From a virus, in IMG/VR virus record IMGVR_UViG_3300027759_004121, positions 1 through 21,974 of that record: 21,974 bases of DNA. One strand, written 5' to 3'. The translations under genes and the position numbers were made by a program. Shown here piece by piece: positions 17,616 through 21,972 of the stretch (position 1 is the first letter of the stretch; each line of letters opens with the position of its first letter). Under the pieces are notes generated by a model. It saw only the letters and a list, made by a program, of their open reading frames with translations. It ran no database searches and was not told the origin of the DNA.

Positions 17616-17831
17616 ATGACAAACAATACAGAACCTGCCTTAAAAGATATGTATAAAGATACCTCTTGTTACACATACGAGGTAGTTATGCTTGTTCAAA
17701 TACTAGCTCCTAGCAAAGACATTGCTGATATGAAACTAGATCAAGATGGCGGATATATAAGTAAAAGAGATGTAGAATTTAAACACTCAACTCTCCTATA
17801 CAAAGATGGGATAGACGAGGAAATAAAATGA
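17616..17831 (+). CDS. 71-residue conserved-looking protein of unknown function
   Basis: The start at 17616 is chosen because AAAGGA at 17604-17609 lies six bases upstream; an open frame extends further left but overlaps the previous gene and has no such site. The protein has YTYEVVMLVQILA followed by KLDQDGGYISKRDVEF, predicting beta strand, helix, strand. It has one Cys and no membrane segment. The TGA stop overlaps the glycosyltransferase ATG (ATGA), so the two are probably translationally coupled. I do not recognise the family. A link to glycan transfer or fibre assembly rests on position alone. Confidence 0.7.
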   Translation: MTNNTEPALKDMYKDTSCYTYEVVMLVQILAPSKDIADMKLDQDGGYISKRDVEFKHSTLLYKDGIDEEIK

Positions 17832-18889
17832 AAGTAGCCGTCTACACGATAGCCCTTAATGAAGAGAAGTTTGTTGAAACTTGGTACAACTCTGTAAAAG
17901 ATGAGGCAGATTATCTGCTCATAGCAGATACAGGATCAACAGATAAAACTATTGAGAAGGCTCTTGCTTTAGGAATCAATGTTGTATCTATATGTGTAAA
18001 GCCTTGGCGTTTTGATCAAGCAAGAAATGTTTCTTTAGGGCTACTTCCATCTGATATTGACTACTGCATTCCTTTAGACATGGACGAGATTATGTTACCG
18101 GGATGGAAAGCAGAGCTTGAAAAAGCATTTGAAGCTAAAGCTACTCGCCCTAGATATAACTATACTTGGAACTGGAATGAAGATGGAACTCCTGGCCTAA
18201 CCTTTGGTGGAGATAAGATTCATGCTCGCCACGGATATCGTTGGAAACATCCAGTACACGAAGTTCTAGTTCCTGACCGAATGCAAGAGGTTCAGTATTG
18301 GACTCAGGCAACTATGGAGCATCACGCAGATAATACGAAGTCACGAGGGCAGTATTTAGATCTGCTAAAAATCTCTGTAGAAGAAGATCCATATGATGAT
18401 AGAAATGCTTTCTATTATGCAAGAGAGCTATATTTTTATAACAGACTTGATGAAGCAAAAGAAGAATTTAAACGTCACCTACAGCTACATACAGCAAGAT
18501 GGGCACCAGAGCGTTCAGCATCAATGCGTTTTATTGGAAAGATATCCAAAGAAGATGCAGAGCTGTGGTTTACCATGGCAATAAAGGAAGCTCCAGAACG
18601 TAGAGAAGCATATGTCGATCTCGCTCAACACTACTACTCTATTGCCAATTGGGAAGAGTGTTATGAAATAGCAATGAAAGCTTTGGCAATCACTGTTAAG
18701 CCTATGGAGTATCTCTGTGAAGCAGAGGCTTGGGGCCATACACCGCACGATATGGCAGCAATTGCTGCTTACAACTTAGGAAGATATCAAGATGCAGTTG
18801 TTCATGCAAGAGCTGCTTTTGAGATTGCTACTCCAGAGCACAAGGAAAGACTTGCTAATAACTTAGCGTTCTGCGAGCAGAAAGCATGA
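17828..18889 (+). CDS. Family 2 glycosyltransferase with helical-repeat C-terminus
   Basis: This is a 353-residue cytoplasmic enzyme. Residues 1 to about 200 form a GT-A fold: VYTIALNEEKFV at the N-terminus, D34-TGSTD39 for the nucleotide sugar, FDQARNVSL (62-70), and the metal-binding D84-M-D86-E87. HARHGYRWKHPVHEVL follows, as in other GT2 proteins with a TPR-like tail. The C-terminal third has helical-repeat features (AYVDLAQHYYSIANWEECYEIAMKAL as one unit, LGRYQDAVVHARAAFEIA as another). The donor and acceptor cannot be read from sequence. It overlaps both neighbours by ATGA, and GAGG at 17817-17820 supports the start. Likely acceptors are a virion protein, such as the Thr-rich collagen fibres, or a host glycan. 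Confidence 0.87.
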   Translation: MKVAVYTIALNEEKFVETWYNSVKDEADYLLIADTGSTDKTIEKALALGINVVSICVKPWRFDQARNVSLGLLPSDIDYCIPLDMDEIMLPGWKAELEKAFEAKATRPRYNYTWNWNEDGTPGLTFGGDKIHARHGYRWKHPVHEVLVPDRMQEVQYWTQATMEHHADNTKSRGQYLDLLKISVEEDPYDDRNAFYYARELYFYNRLDEAKEEFKRHLQLHTARWAPERSASMRFIGKISKEDAELWFTMAIKEAPERREAYVDLAQHYYSIANWEECYEIAMKALAITVKPMEYLCEAEAWGHTPHDMAAIAAYNLGRYQDAVVHARAAFEIATPEHKERLANNLAFCEQKA

Positions 18890-19461
18890 CATATCCTAAT
18901 TGGTTTATTGAGGGCGGAGCTATCCATAACTTCTCTAAATTCTTACCTGCGTATAAAGATGTAAAGGTAGATTTTCTCCAGCTAGGAGCCTACACAGGGG
19001 ATGCTTCTGCATGGCTTTTTGATAATGTTCTCACCCACCCAGAATCAACTTTAACAGATGTAGATACTTGGGAAGGCTCTGAAGAAGAAGAGCACATGGA
19101 TATGGATTGGAAAAGTGTAGAAGAAACCTACGATCAAAAACTACGACCTTTCCTTGACTCAGGTCAGCTAATAAAAAAGAAAATGACAACTAAAGAATTC
19201 TTTAAGTCAAATAATAAAAAATATGAGTTTGTCTATGTAGATGCAGATCATCATGCAATCTGGGCCCTTAGAGATGGATTAGACGGGTACTCCTGCCTTA
19301 ACAATGGAGGAATACTTGCCTTTGATGATTATATGTGGGGAGCTTCTTTACCTAAAATGGATCAGCCTAAAACAGGGGTTGATGCATTTTTGATTCCTTA
19401 TGCAAATAAAGTTAATGTTCTAGAGCAGGGTTTGCAAGTTTGGACGAGGAAGATTTTTTAG
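18886..19461 (+). CDS. Class I SAM-dependent methyltransferase (Methyltransf_24-like)
   Basis: This is a 191-residue protein. F30-LQLGAYTGDAS41 is the glycine-containing SAM-binding loop. FVYVDADHHA (115-124) and GGILAFDDYMWG fit the Methyltransf_24-type Rossmann fold, where the acidic and His residues often bind metal. Related enzymes act on sugars or small hydroxylated compounds. Coupled to the glycosyltransferase by an ATGA overlap, it may O-methylate the transferred sugar; that is inference. Its last 50 bases overlap the 3' end of the minus-strand WhiB-like gene. The frame ends cleanly at TAG after VWTRKIF, so no truncation is evident. Confidence 0.83.
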   Translation: MTYPNWFIEGGAIHNFSKFLPAYKDVKVDFLQLGAYTGDASAWLFDNVLTHPESTLTDVDTWEGSEEEEHMDMDWKSVEETYDQKLRPFLDSGQLIKKKMTTKEFFKSNNKKYEFVYVDADHHAIWALRDGLDGYSCLNNGGILAFDDYMWGASLPKMDQPKTGVDAFLIPYANKVNVLEQGLQVWTRKIF

Positions 19462-19936
19462 ATTTAGTTTTCTTAGTAGTTTTTTCTACACGATCTGCTT
19501 TGTAAGCTTCAACTGCATTTGCACTGGTTCTACTTCTCCAAGCAAAACCACACTCTGTACATGTAACAACTTTTGCTGTTGTCCATCGTCCTCCATTAGG
19601 AAGTTGCTCAATAGAAGTTTCTAGTTTTGAAGGTCTAGCTGTGCAGTATGGACAATTAGGAAATCTACGACGTCTTGTCTCTTCACCGTTGTAGGACACT
19701 GACAGAGCTCTGCGAATATCAACTTCATCTCTACCGCCCCAGATACCCCAGATTTGACGATGCTCTAGAGCCCACTGAAGACATTCTGAGCGCACAGGAC
19801 AGGTAAAGCACATGTTCTTAGCCGCATATTTTTCTTTAAAGTCTTTAGAGAAAAACCAGTCTAAAGCGTACCTATTAGAAGGCTTGGCACAAGTAGCCTC
19901 TGATTGCCAATTAAGATTCTCTGCTGGTTTCCACAC
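19412..19936 (-). CDS. WhiB-like iron-sulphur protein fused to a zinc ribbon
   Basis: This is a 174-residue regulator. The WhiB signature is complete: Cys16, Cys43, Cys46 and Cys52 (C-x2-C-x5-C), then G64-IWGG68 and the basic helix start. WhiB proteins bind a 4Fe-4S cluster and usually contact sigma factor and DNA. A second cysteine set, Cys95-x2-Cys98 and Cys126-x2-Cys129, looks like a zinc ribbon, followed by a Lys/Ser-rich tail (about 150-167). Most WhiB proteins stop near 80-130 residues, so this extension is unusual. The start is GTG; no Shine-Dalgarno is visible, and losing residues before Cys16 would break the cluster site. It probably regulates phage or host transcription. Confidence 0.85.
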   Translation of the reverse strand: MWKPAENLNWQSEATCAKPSNRYALDWFFSKDFKEKYAAKNMCFTCPVRSECLQWALEHRQIWGIWGGRDEVDIRRALSVSYNGEETRRRRFPNCPYCTARPSKLETSIEQLPNGGRWTTAKVVTCTECGFAWRSRTSANAVEAYKADRVEKTTKKTKSKKSSSSKLANPALEH

Positions 19937-19993: not shown

Positions 19994-20329
19994 TTATATT
20001 TCTATCCAAGTTGCAGGAAAGATAGAATCAACTAAATCTCCATACTCTGTCTCACCTAACTCATTGCAGACTACATAATCTTCTTCATCTTCTATTATTC
20101 CAGTCCACCCATAATTTGGAGAGCACTTGTCAATTAAATTAAATCCATCTCCAAGAGAAATCGCTACTCCATCTCTTTGTAAAGCGGAAGCTAAAGCTCT
20201 TCTTACCAAGTCATTCTCTAGATCAATATGTTCAAAGGTGTAATAAATAACCGAGCAGTCTACCTGTGGATCGTATCCAGATCCTTCCCACTCTTCCCAA
20301 AGAAAGTCACCCGGTCTATCGCTTCTCAT
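19994..20329 (-). CDS. Acidic protein of unknown function
   Basis: This 111-residue protein is strongly acidic (WEEWEGSGYD, IIEDEEDYVV, ELGETEYGDL). It has three scattered Cys without a zinc-binding spacing and a probable helix at ENDLVRRALASALQRDG. It starts at an ATG preceded on the minus strand by AAGGTAGGA. It lies nine bases after the stop of the upstream four-cysteine gene, so they probably share a transcript. I do not recognise the family. Acidic early phage proteins sometimes bind host proteins or mimic DNA, but no evidence here favours that. Confidence 0.68.
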   Translation of the reverse strand: MRSDRPGDFLWEEWEGSGYDPQVDCSVIYYTFEHIDLENDLVRRALASALQRDGVAISLGDGFNLIDKCSPNYGWTGIIEDEEDYVVCNELGETEYGDLVDSIFPATWIEI

Positions 20330-20338
20330 ATTCCTACC

Positions 20339-20632
20339 TTATATTTGATCATCTTCAGGGTTAATATTAAGCTCAAAATCTGGACTCTGCTGATCCAAAA
20401 AATACATTTCGCTAGTAAGTTTCATTTCAAATATTCCAGCTATGGTCACTGACCCGCACATAGCGCATACCTCAACAGATCCATTATTTACTTTATTAGG
20501 AACATCTACGCCTTTTAGACGCATAATTATTCGCCCTGTGGTGTCCATACTCTCTGGCTCCCACTTTGCATGATTGTCCATCCAACATACTTCACAAATA
20601 GGTACAGGACTGATTACTGGTTCTGCAGCCAT
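20339..20632 (-). CDS. Small four-cysteine, probably zinc-binding protein
   Basis: This is a 97-residue protein. Cys13-x2-Cys16 (ICEVCW) and Cys56-x2-Cys59 (VCAMCG) form a plausible zinc ribbon or knuckle with a 39-residue loop. The C-terminal part is acidic (SPDFELNINPEDDQI). No helix-turn-helix is seen. The Shine-Dalgarno is weak (GTTGGA). It lies between two WhiB-like genes on one strand, fitting a regulatory or early gene block. The function is unknown; nucleic-acid or protein binding is possible. Confidence 0.72.
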   Translation of the reverse strand: MAAEPVISPVPICEVCWMDNHAKWEPESMDTTGRIIMRLKGVDVPNKVNNGSVEVCAMCGSVTIAGIFEMKLTSEMYFLDQQSPDFELNINPEDDQI

Positions 20633-20664: not shown

Positions 20665-20961
20665 CTACCCGTATAAAGCATGAGGGACATCTTCTTTAAG
20701 TATTATATTTAACTTACCTCGTATTTGTTTTCTTTCCTCTGGAGAGTACCCTCCCCAAAAACCGTGCTTTTCATTTTGCACAGCCCAGTCTCCACACTCT
20801 TTTAGATGTGCACAAGAAGAACATATCTTTTTAGCTTCAACATAAGCATTAAGTCTTTGACCAACAACTACTTCATCTTTATCCTCGATATAAAACAACT
20901 CTGCGCCTATTTCGGCGCAGAGCGGTTCTTCATATTTCCAAGGCGGCACAAGGTCCGTCAT
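20665..20961 (-). CDS. WhiB-like transcriptional regulator
   Basis: This 98-residue protein has Cys15, Cys47, Cys50 and Cys56 (the last three as ICSSCAHLKEC), then HGFWGGYSPEERKQIR, the standard WhiB turn and basic segment. The gap between the first two cysteines (31 residues) is longer than is typical for the family, as in the other WhiB-like protein here. The ATG at 20961 is chosen over an in-frame TTG four codons upstream, because GGAGG sits five bases before that ATG. Phage WhiB proteins can repress host WhiB genes; a role in controlling host or phage transcription is inferred. The next gene upstream ends 21 bases away. Confidence 0.88.
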   Translation of the reverse strand: MTDLVPPWKYEEPLCAEIGAELFYIEDKDEVVVGQRLNAYVEAKKICSSCAHLKECGDWAVQNEKHGFWGGYSPEERKQIRGKLNIILKEDVPHALYG

Positions 20962-20966
20962 CTTCC

Positions 20967-20971
20967 CCTCC
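20967..20971 (-). promoter_or_regulatory. Shine-Dalgarno deciding the WhiB-like start
   Basis: GGAGG on the minus strand lies five bases before the ATG at 20961 and overlaps the in-frame TTG at 20973, making that TTG an unlikely start. Confidence 0.75.
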
Positions 20972-20982
20972 AAGAAACTAGT

Positions 20983-21327
20983 TTATTTTTCTGACGCTAT
21001 CTTTCCTACTTCATAACCGCACCCAGCGTATCCAGCAATATCAATCCATGTGTCAGGTTGGAACCCAGAACCATGAGCAAAACGTGCCATTTTAAGACCG
21101 ACCATCATCATTGCTACTTGCTCATTGGTTATTTCTACACCAAGAATAACGGACCAAATCTTTGCAGTTCTTGTAAAGTTTTCTTCTGGTCCGCCATAAT
21201 TAGCGTTTCTATCTTGCGTAGTGATTCGAGCAGCCTCACGCAAGGCTTCTACACGATGTGGAGTATCAGAAGTCTGTTTAGCATAATCATTAATAGGGGG
21301 AACATTATTATTTGCTTGTTCAGACAT
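20983..21327 (-). CDS. DUF6378-like phage protein
   Basis: This 114-residue protein matches my memory of the DUF6378 family found in many phages: REAARITTQDRNANYGGPEENF, then TAKIW, VAMMMVGLKMARF and a C-terminal DTWIDIAGYAGCGYEV. It is mostly helical. The NYGGP segment and the MMxxLKxAR helix are the conserved parts. Its biochemical role is not established to my knowledge. GAGG lies seven bases before the ATG, and the gene overlaps the upstream 70-residue gene by eight bases. Confidence 0.82.
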   Translation of the reverse strand: MSEQANNNVPPINDYAKQTSDTPHRVEALREAARITTQDRNANYGGPEENFTRTAKIWSVILGVEITNEQVAMMMVGLKMARFAHGSGFQPDTWIDIAGYAGCGYEVGKIASEK

Positions 21328-21532
21328 TCTTCAACCTCGCAGTCACTAGAGCAGTATATGAATAAGTACTAGGTATTTTTAAGCTAGGCTCTATCTCTAG
21401 CTCATAAGAAACATACTTACCAAGTTCTTCTTGTTCAATGTCAATAAATCCAGATAATTCTTTTTTAGCTTTATCTTGAATATTTTGATAGTCACTACCA
21501 TCAACTCTAAACTTAAAAGTAGCGGAGTTCAC
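21320..21532 (-). CDS. 70-residue protein of unknown function
   Basis: The GTG start overlaps the TAG stop of the upstream gene by one base (TAGTG), favouring translational coupling over an independent site; no strong Shine-Dalgarno is seen. The pattern is strand, helix, strand: ATFKFRVDGSDY, then a Lys-rich helix, then YELEIEPS and YTALVTARLKN. I recall similar small unnamed proteins in actinobacteriophages but cannot name a family. A ferredoxin-like half fold is possible. Confidence 0.68.
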   Translation of the reverse strand: MNSATFKFRVDGSDYQNIQDKAKKELSGFIDIEQEELGKYVSYELEIEPSLKIPSTYSYTALVTARLKNV

Positions 21533-21972
21533 TATGGAACTCGTTTCTCTAGCTGTTGTGGCGTGTAGTGGAATCCGTCTAAGACAGGTTCTTTTCCGTC
21601 CGTTGTTTTAACAATAATGTCACCGTATCTAATACTTACTACTTTGCCACGGCGTCCATTATGCAATTTACCCATATCGCCATCAAATGCGTTCCATTTA
21701 ACTCTGACTTCATCGGCAACAACGATCTGACCAGATTGTGCTGGCACCCATCTTTCATTTTTAGTGTCTACAATAATTGCATGACCTAGCGCCAATTTAC
21801 CAAATAGTTCAATAATTTGACTTAGGTTTGCTTCGTTCTTTTGTGGGTCTGGATCTGTATTCTTTAGTTCTTCCCACTTTTCTAGTAGGGCAATAACATG
21901 ATCACCAACAACTCTTTTAGTTTTGTTGTTGGTCAACTGTTCTTTGACCCACGGCATATCTACTTTGGCCAT
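21532..21972 (-). CDS. SH3/KOW-like domain protein of unknown role
   Basis: This is a 146-residue protein starting at an ATG two bases from the window's right edge, so its ribosome binding site cannot be seen and a longer form is possible. The N-terminal half is helical (WVKEQL, DHVIALLEKWEEL). The C-terminal half contains NGRRGKVVSIRYGDIIVKTTDG, a KOW/SH3-like barrel pattern, ending in HYTPQQLEKRVP. I recall similar unnamed proteins in actinobacteriophages. It may bind nucleic acid, but no catalytic motif is visible. It is the first visible gene of the minus-strand block. Confidence 0.72.
   Translation of the reverse strand: MAKVDMPWVKEQLTNNKTKRVVGDHVIALLEKWEELKNTDPDPQKNEANLSQIIELFGKLALGHAIIVDTKNERWVPAQSGQIVVADEVRVKWNAFDGDMGKLHNGRRGKVVSIRYGDIIVKTTDGKEPVLDGFHYTPQQLEKRVP

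Follow-up and report, generated by a model that had tools for sequence, protein, structure and literature searches.

Besides the genes described here, the window (the whole stretch of DNA that was analyzed, a virus record of 21,974 bases) contains mostly plus-strand phage tail genes. On its (−) strand, an ORF of 174 aa with a GTG start occupies positions 19412–19936, which are exactly the bounds proposed, without a strand, in an earlier note on this DNA. Pfam, alignment and an AlphaFold2 model revealed the following layout. The protein begins with a WhiB domain (aa 9–80; positions 19697–19912 on the (−) strand) that includes W10, C16, F28-F29, C43, C46, C52 and the turn G64-I-W-G-G68. In the alignment, a run of arginines (R88–R91; 19664–19675) links this domain to a zinc ribbon (aa 93–137; 19526–19660, from alignment and model) with the pairs C95-x2-C98 and C126-x2-C129, and the protein ends in a predicted basic helix and a Lys/Ser tail (aa 138–174; 19415–19525), in which K/R residues number nine vs four D/E. 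The second cysteine set of the window protein reads C95-P-Y-C98 and C126-T-E-C129, and all of the elements listed in the earlier note, namely, the four cluster cysteines, the GIWGG turn, the C-P-Y-C and C-T-E-C pairs and the Lys/Ser tail, are present. At its 3′ end, the ORF overlaps a convergent methyltransferase-like gene (18886–19461) by 50 bases. The latter follows a glycosyltransferase gene (PHROG 13126) on the (+) strand, the pair spanning positions 17828–19461 beside tail-fibre genes; in relatives, this pair is often located farther off or elsewhere.

We found that the WhiB model of Pfam (PF02467) matches residues 10–73 with an E-value of 1.5e-16 and 61.1 bits vs a cut-off of 23.6, and a match to the same model was present in all 35 family members scanned. 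Membership in the WhiB/Wbl family is also evident from the cluster cysteines C16, C43, C46 and C52 (present in 105/105 aligned rows) and from the G[I/V]W[G/A]G turn, which takes the form GIWGG at residues 64–68; the tryptophan, the FF pair, GIWGG and the cluster cysteines of the window protein all align with those of Streptomyces WhiB (8dy9). Both domains were well modelled by AlphaFold2 from 35 sequences (mean pLDDT of 85.7), and residues 9–80 of the model resemble WhiB1 and WhiB3 bound to sigma-A region 4 (Z of 10.8, rmsd of 1.3, 67–68 residues aligned).

Further analysis of the second cysteine set revealed that all eight cysteines are invariant in 105/105 aligned rows of unique relatives, among which the window is possibly counted twice, since locus L087 is its own stretch, and for which the underlying scans were selected partly on ribbon motifs. 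When loci were selected by the WhiB domain alone, the ribbon cysteines were present in 80/80 loci (the best 80 of 509 relatives), and when they were selected by a neighbouring acidic gene alone, the eight-cysteine protein was present in 120 of 127 loci, many of the loci from both selections lying on the same contigs as those of the first scans. The other seven contigs end no more than 300 bp from the acidic gene, one of them with a truncated copy of the WhiB-ribbon gene. The same 105 rows also keep R117, W133, R136, S138 and N140 without exception, and the arginine run is retained to varying degrees (R88 in 96 rows, R89 in 104, R90 in 70 and R91 in 96). Shuffling of the 94-aa C-terminal part reproduced the C2-C2 arrangement in 168 of 200,000 trials, and the second cysteine set is not due to chance. 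The earlier note's reading of a WhiB domain fused to a further metal site is therefore supported, and the motif of this site is strictly conserved (105/105 rows); that note had named non-conservation of these cysteines as grounds for abandoning the idea, and they proved invariant instead.

Next, we compared codons with those of four relatives. The numbers of synonymous/non-synonymous differences were 3/0, 5/0, 19/1 and 16/3 in the ribbon and 8/0, 8/0, 23/0 and 21/5 in the WhiB domain; judged by these counts, the ribbon is under purifying selection similar to that on the WhiB domain between close relatives. In the tail, the corresponding numbers were 2/3, 1/7, 2/7 and 2/5, i.e., it changes freely, so that the basic character is kept but the letters are not. 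Within the WhiB domain itself, the tryptophan of the turn is kept in 97 of the 105 rows, and the remaining eight have GTRGG or GTRAG. These two turns characterize a Microbacterium-phage type (L082, L083, L084, L086 and relatives) and are without the tryptophan used on sigma-A; of the whole genomes scanned, Pumpernickel and A3Wally are of this type, and in both the WhiB of the GTRGG/GTRAG type is the sole WhiB match.

The full protein matched 563 of 50,697 phage records by tblastn, and the match reached the ribbon in at least 12 of them: Actinomycetia phage DSL-LC01, seven Microbacterium phage records and four Arthrobacter phage records. Nine of these ribbon-reaching proteins were read, and both cysteine sets were present in 9/9; in the records, such proteins are annotated merely as WhiB family. 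Searching the phage records with the ribbon only returned 18 records, of which 8 were WhiB proteins, while single tblastn scans of IMG/VR each yielded about 490–509 relatives. The layout occurs in actinophages of about 90–195 kb from lakes as well as in Microbacterium and, more distantly, Arthrobacter phages. The earlier note did not know this as a standard WhiB layout. Among the curated Pfam and NCBIfam models, none that scores over its cut-off reaches into the extension after the WhiB domain; within one set of large actinophages, however, the layout is the rule. When 396 actinobacterial chromosomes were searched with the ribbon profile, no such fusion was seen, and the profile produced three marginal matches in long ORFs; the two that were inspected (methyltransferase-like and transposase-like by eye) are not fused to WhiB, and the third is locus L332. 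A bacterial origin of the fusion was also considered and set aside: one genome scan found no relative, and a second found four chromosomal WhiBs, all without the ribbon and with 35–51% identity over parts of the WhiB domain.

Structure comparison of residues 91–137 gave weak and tied matches to the ribbons of A12.2, RPB9, TFIIS, RNase P and NrdR (Z of 2.9–3.5, rmsd of about 2.2–3.5, 39–46 residues aligned), as is expected of a 45-residue ribbon. Thermococcus RPB9 (1qyp) topped the non-WhiB chains in Foldseek (E-value of 0.2) and ranked third in a sequence search with the ribbon profile (E-value of 0.05). The model predicts a ribbon of the TFIIS/RPB9 type, with two CxxC knuckles and strands at residues 105–111, 120–126 and 132–134, followed by a long helix at residues 136–167. 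With the C-terminal ribbon of TFIIS, RPB9 and A12.2 (Z of 3.0–3.5 for these three), the window protein shares the three strands and the CPxC...CxxCGxxW spacing, whereas it is phage-encoded, fused to WhiB and without the conserved acidic pair in the hairpin. TFIIS-dependent transcript cleavage uses such an acidic pair at the hairpin tip. In our 105 rows, positions 110–113 are not conserved as acidic (position 110 is E in 58 rows, and position 111 is a mix of Q, D and E), so the protein does not qualify as a TFIIS-like cleavage factor. The ribbons of NrdR and of ISL3-type transposases likewise share a bacterial CPxC...CxxC pattern with arginines between the pairs, and NrdR and one transposase-like ORF turn up in ribbon searches; the window protein, in contrast, is without an ATP-cone or transposase domain. 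Specifically, no ATP-cone Pfam match was found up to an E-value of 1, and the C-terminus consists of helix and tail, which separates the protein from NrdR. A reading as HNH endonuclease was rejected, with no HNH Pfam match in the window ribbon and only weak HNH_5 matches in 2 of 35 relatives (best 0.018).

Directly upstream of the WhiB-ribbon gene, on the same strand, lies a gene for an acidic protein of 111 aa (19994–20329; pI of 4.05), which the earlier note did not mention, nor did it mention a plain WhiB gene located 0.7 kb upstream. Linkage of the acidic partner is strict: of the 110 distinct loci whose sequence extends far enough, 107 have it immediately upstream, the misses being L161, Cece and Racecar, and in Cece the gene at this position aligns with the partner by eye. 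Reciprocally, the WhiB-ribbon gene was found at all 120 testable partner loci (of 127, seven being contigs that end early). The partner matched 7 of the 50,697 phage records, all seven of which also have the WhiB-ribbon gene, and it was not seen in the mycobacteriophages of this collection. Its pI ranged from 4.05 to 4.74 across 40 representatives, and in the window the pI of 4.05 contrasts with 9.49 for the WhiB-ribbon protein. The partner was modelled confidently (pLDDT of 88) and returned no PDB match at an E-value of ≤0.001 (best Z of 3.1), which does not in itself prove a new fold. The strict linkage and the opposite charge suggest that the two proteins form a complex, and the tightly linked acidic partner is the best lead to come from this analysis.

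Farther upstream, also on the (−) strand, a 97-aa protein with two CxxC pairs (CEVC...CAMC; 20339–20632) is encoded in 71 of 105 distinct loci, often as the next gene in the operon, and has no Pfam, PHROG or NCBIfam match. It is followed by the plain WhiB gene (102 aa, without a ribbon; 20665–20973; Pfam E-value of 5.4e-12; 52 of 107 distinct loci), a gene for a DUF6378 protein (20983–21327; 70 of 90 distinct loci) and a gene for a conserved neighbour of 146 aa (21532–21972; 82 of 84 distinct loci). The 146-aa protein is without a family match, and even Microbacterium phages keep its homologues close to the WhiB-ribbon gene; its C-terminal half (GRRGKVVSIRYGDIIVKT) resembles a KOW motif by eye.

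In DSL-LC01, the WhiB-ribbon gene ends a rightward block that contains genes for thymidylate synthase, DNA polymerase I, helicase and RecA, and it faces leftward collagen-like genes, as does the gene in the window. We also analyzed 16 related records of 92–195 kb, of which those from IMG/VR are possibly fragments, and found Sigma70 region 2 in none of them (the control was positive in 10 of 14 genomes). Weak Sigma70_r4 matches occurred in 11 of the 16 records, 3 of them over the cut-off; these are mostly short HTH stretches and were taken for HTH proteins rather than for sigma factors. Single-subunit RNA polymerase gave no match in the 16 records and none in the control genomes either, which makes this search uninformative. 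Each of the 16 records contained one to three WhiB matches, and in four of them (Pumpernickel, A3Wally, Racecar and the IMG/VR record G009) the ribbon WhiB was the only one.

Two known kinds of WhiB protein come close to this layout. Mycobacterial WhiB7 likewise joins a WhiB core, which docks on region 4 of sigma-A (a property that the window protein would share), to a basic, DNA-contacting C-terminus, but in place of the short AT-hook of WhiB7, the window protein has a folded ribbon with four cysteines, followed by a basic helix. For WhiB7, both binding to sigma-A region 4 and a need for the C-terminal AT-hook in activation have been described (PMC3905903); WhiB1 and WhiB3, with conserved W residues and a G[I/V]W[G/A]G turn, also bind this part of sigma-A (PMC10245118). 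In Fruitloop gp55 (PHROG 1333), also a phage WhiB, cysteine pairs likewise form a C-terminal module, and the tail is basic, as in the window protein. Its finger is treble-clef-like (C-x2-C-x13-C-x3-C, with weak matches to zf-MYND and DUF2116), in contrast to the C-x2-C-x27-C-x2-C of the window ribbon, and PHROG 1333 covers residues 4–100 of the window protein vs 1–132 of Fruitloop gp55, which places the window protein outside the Fruitloop type. At least 80% of Fruitloop gp55 was covered in 383 of 659 matching phage records, and the phages listed with WhiBs of this type have genomes of about 40–61 kb. In Fruitloop (L460), the gene lies at 756–1157, and WhiBs of PHROG 1333 are labelled "WhiB/HNH endonuclease" or simply WhiB.

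A search for WhiB plus zinc-ribbon architectures, as the earlier note had proposed, therefore has a divided outcome: there is no annotated family, but a different finger is common in the WhiBs of mycobacteriophages. We found no literature on either the WhiB-ribbon or the Fruitloop-type layout among mainly open-access papers, and the word "zinc" is absent from the main text of a survey of phage WhiBs (PMC8612146). A WhiB with a different C-terminal zinc finger is already common in mycobacteriophages, and the general idea is not unique; what is new is this particular ribbon and its invariance, its confinement, within the collections searched, to a single set of large actinophages, and the linked acidic partner. 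Together, the ribbon and the Fruitloop-type finger suggest at least two gains of a zinc module by phage WhiBs, both at the C-terminal position where WhiB7 has its DNA-binding AT-hook.

We lean, by a modest degree, toward the reading that the WhiB-ribbon protein is a phage-encoded transcription factor for takeover of the host RNA polymerase, which would dock on sigma-A and place its ribbon on promoter DNA. The WhiB domain would hold a [4Fe-4S] cluster and dock on region 4 of the host primary sigma factor, which is the natural reading because the window protein keeps the sigma-contact features of WhiB1, WhiB3 and WhiB7. Since the arginine run, the ribbon and the basic helix replace the AT-hook, ribbon and helix would grip promoter DNA and thereby confer specificity for phage promoters; the contact with DNA or polymerase anticipated in the earlier note is thus plausible from the sequence and the model. 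The acidic partner could be a co-factor or an antagonist that binds the basic WhiB-ribbon protein. The position at the end of a replication-gene block, facing tail-fibre-type genes, together with the lack of Sigma70 region 2 in the records searched, makes the protein a candidate switch for middle or late phage genes. Sigma docking may not be general, as GTRGG/GTRAG breaks the motif used on sigma; going by sequence, this turn may alter or abolish the sigma contact in the Microbacterium-phage type. The presence of one or two further WhiBs in several of these phages was also counted against our main reading, as were the weak fold matches of the ribbon and the failure of the promoter search to yield a motif for this factor.

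That the ribbon touches RNA polymerase rather than DNA, bridging sigma-A region 4 and the enzyme core as the RPB9 and TFIIS ribbons do, we consider rather unlikely. RPB9 (1qyp), the RNA polymerase I subunit A12.2 and TFIIS are indeed among its best sequence or fold neighbours, but NrdR-type and transposase ribbons match about equally, the acidic pair of the TFIIS hairpin tip is not conserved, and the arginine run ahead of the ribbon and the basic helix behind it fit nucleic acid better. The protein might instead mainly antagonize host WhiB proteins in the manner of the mycobacteriophage TM4 WhiB, which represses host whiB2 and blocks septation (PMC11797047, PMC10202952). This would leave a strongly selected ribbon and a tightly linked partner unexplained, and the plain WhiB genes of several of the same phages would be enough for the purpose, which makes such a role decidedly improbable.

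The strict adjacency, the opposite charge and the lack of a clear PDB match for the partner would also be compatible with a partner that is itself the functional component, toxin-like or a DNA mimic, with the WhiB-ribbon protein mainly controlling or neutralizing it. We regard this as very improbable: the gene pair adjoins replication and recombination genes, and the most distant phages (Racecar, Mimi and Atuin) keep the ribbon WhiB while their upstream gene is without demonstrable homology to the partner.

Extending the takeover reading to both genes, we tentatively propose as a possible scenario a two-gene module of large actinophages, in which the WhiB domain would clamp sigma-A region 4, the ribbon would read phage promoters and the partner would control or complete the complex. 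In phage T4, promoters are redirected by AsiA and MotA, which pair a factor bound to sigma region 4 with a DNA-binding function. If the proposal is true, the two-gene module would amount to a metal-based counterpart of sigma appropriation in T4, and the Microbacterium-phage branch would have changed its sigma contact (GTRGG). AsiA and MotA, unlike the WhiB-ribbon protein, are two separate proteins without metal clusters, and the likeness is one of proposed logic, not homology. WhiB genes serve as a marker for actinophages, though the mode of action is known for very few phage WhiBs; with cultured Microbacterium phages that have the pair and Arthrobacter phages that have the ribbon WhiB, phage control of sigma-A is directly testable.

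No conserved promoter motif could be assigned to the WhiB-ribbon factor by word counts in the upstream regions of G001 or in DSL-LC01. Apart from this, and with no link to the WhiB-ribbon protein established, DSL-LC01 (L316) contains about 32 near-identical promoter-like repeats on the (+) strand between positions 22603 and 43299 (consensus GATTCTAAAGATGTTATAATAGAATCA, ≤9 mismatches), about one per gene in a block of small genes. The repeat has an extended −10 element (TGnTATAAT) within the inverted repeat GATTCTA...TAGAATC and no obvious TTGACA, and it matches 36 times genome-wide vs 0.5 expected from shuffles.
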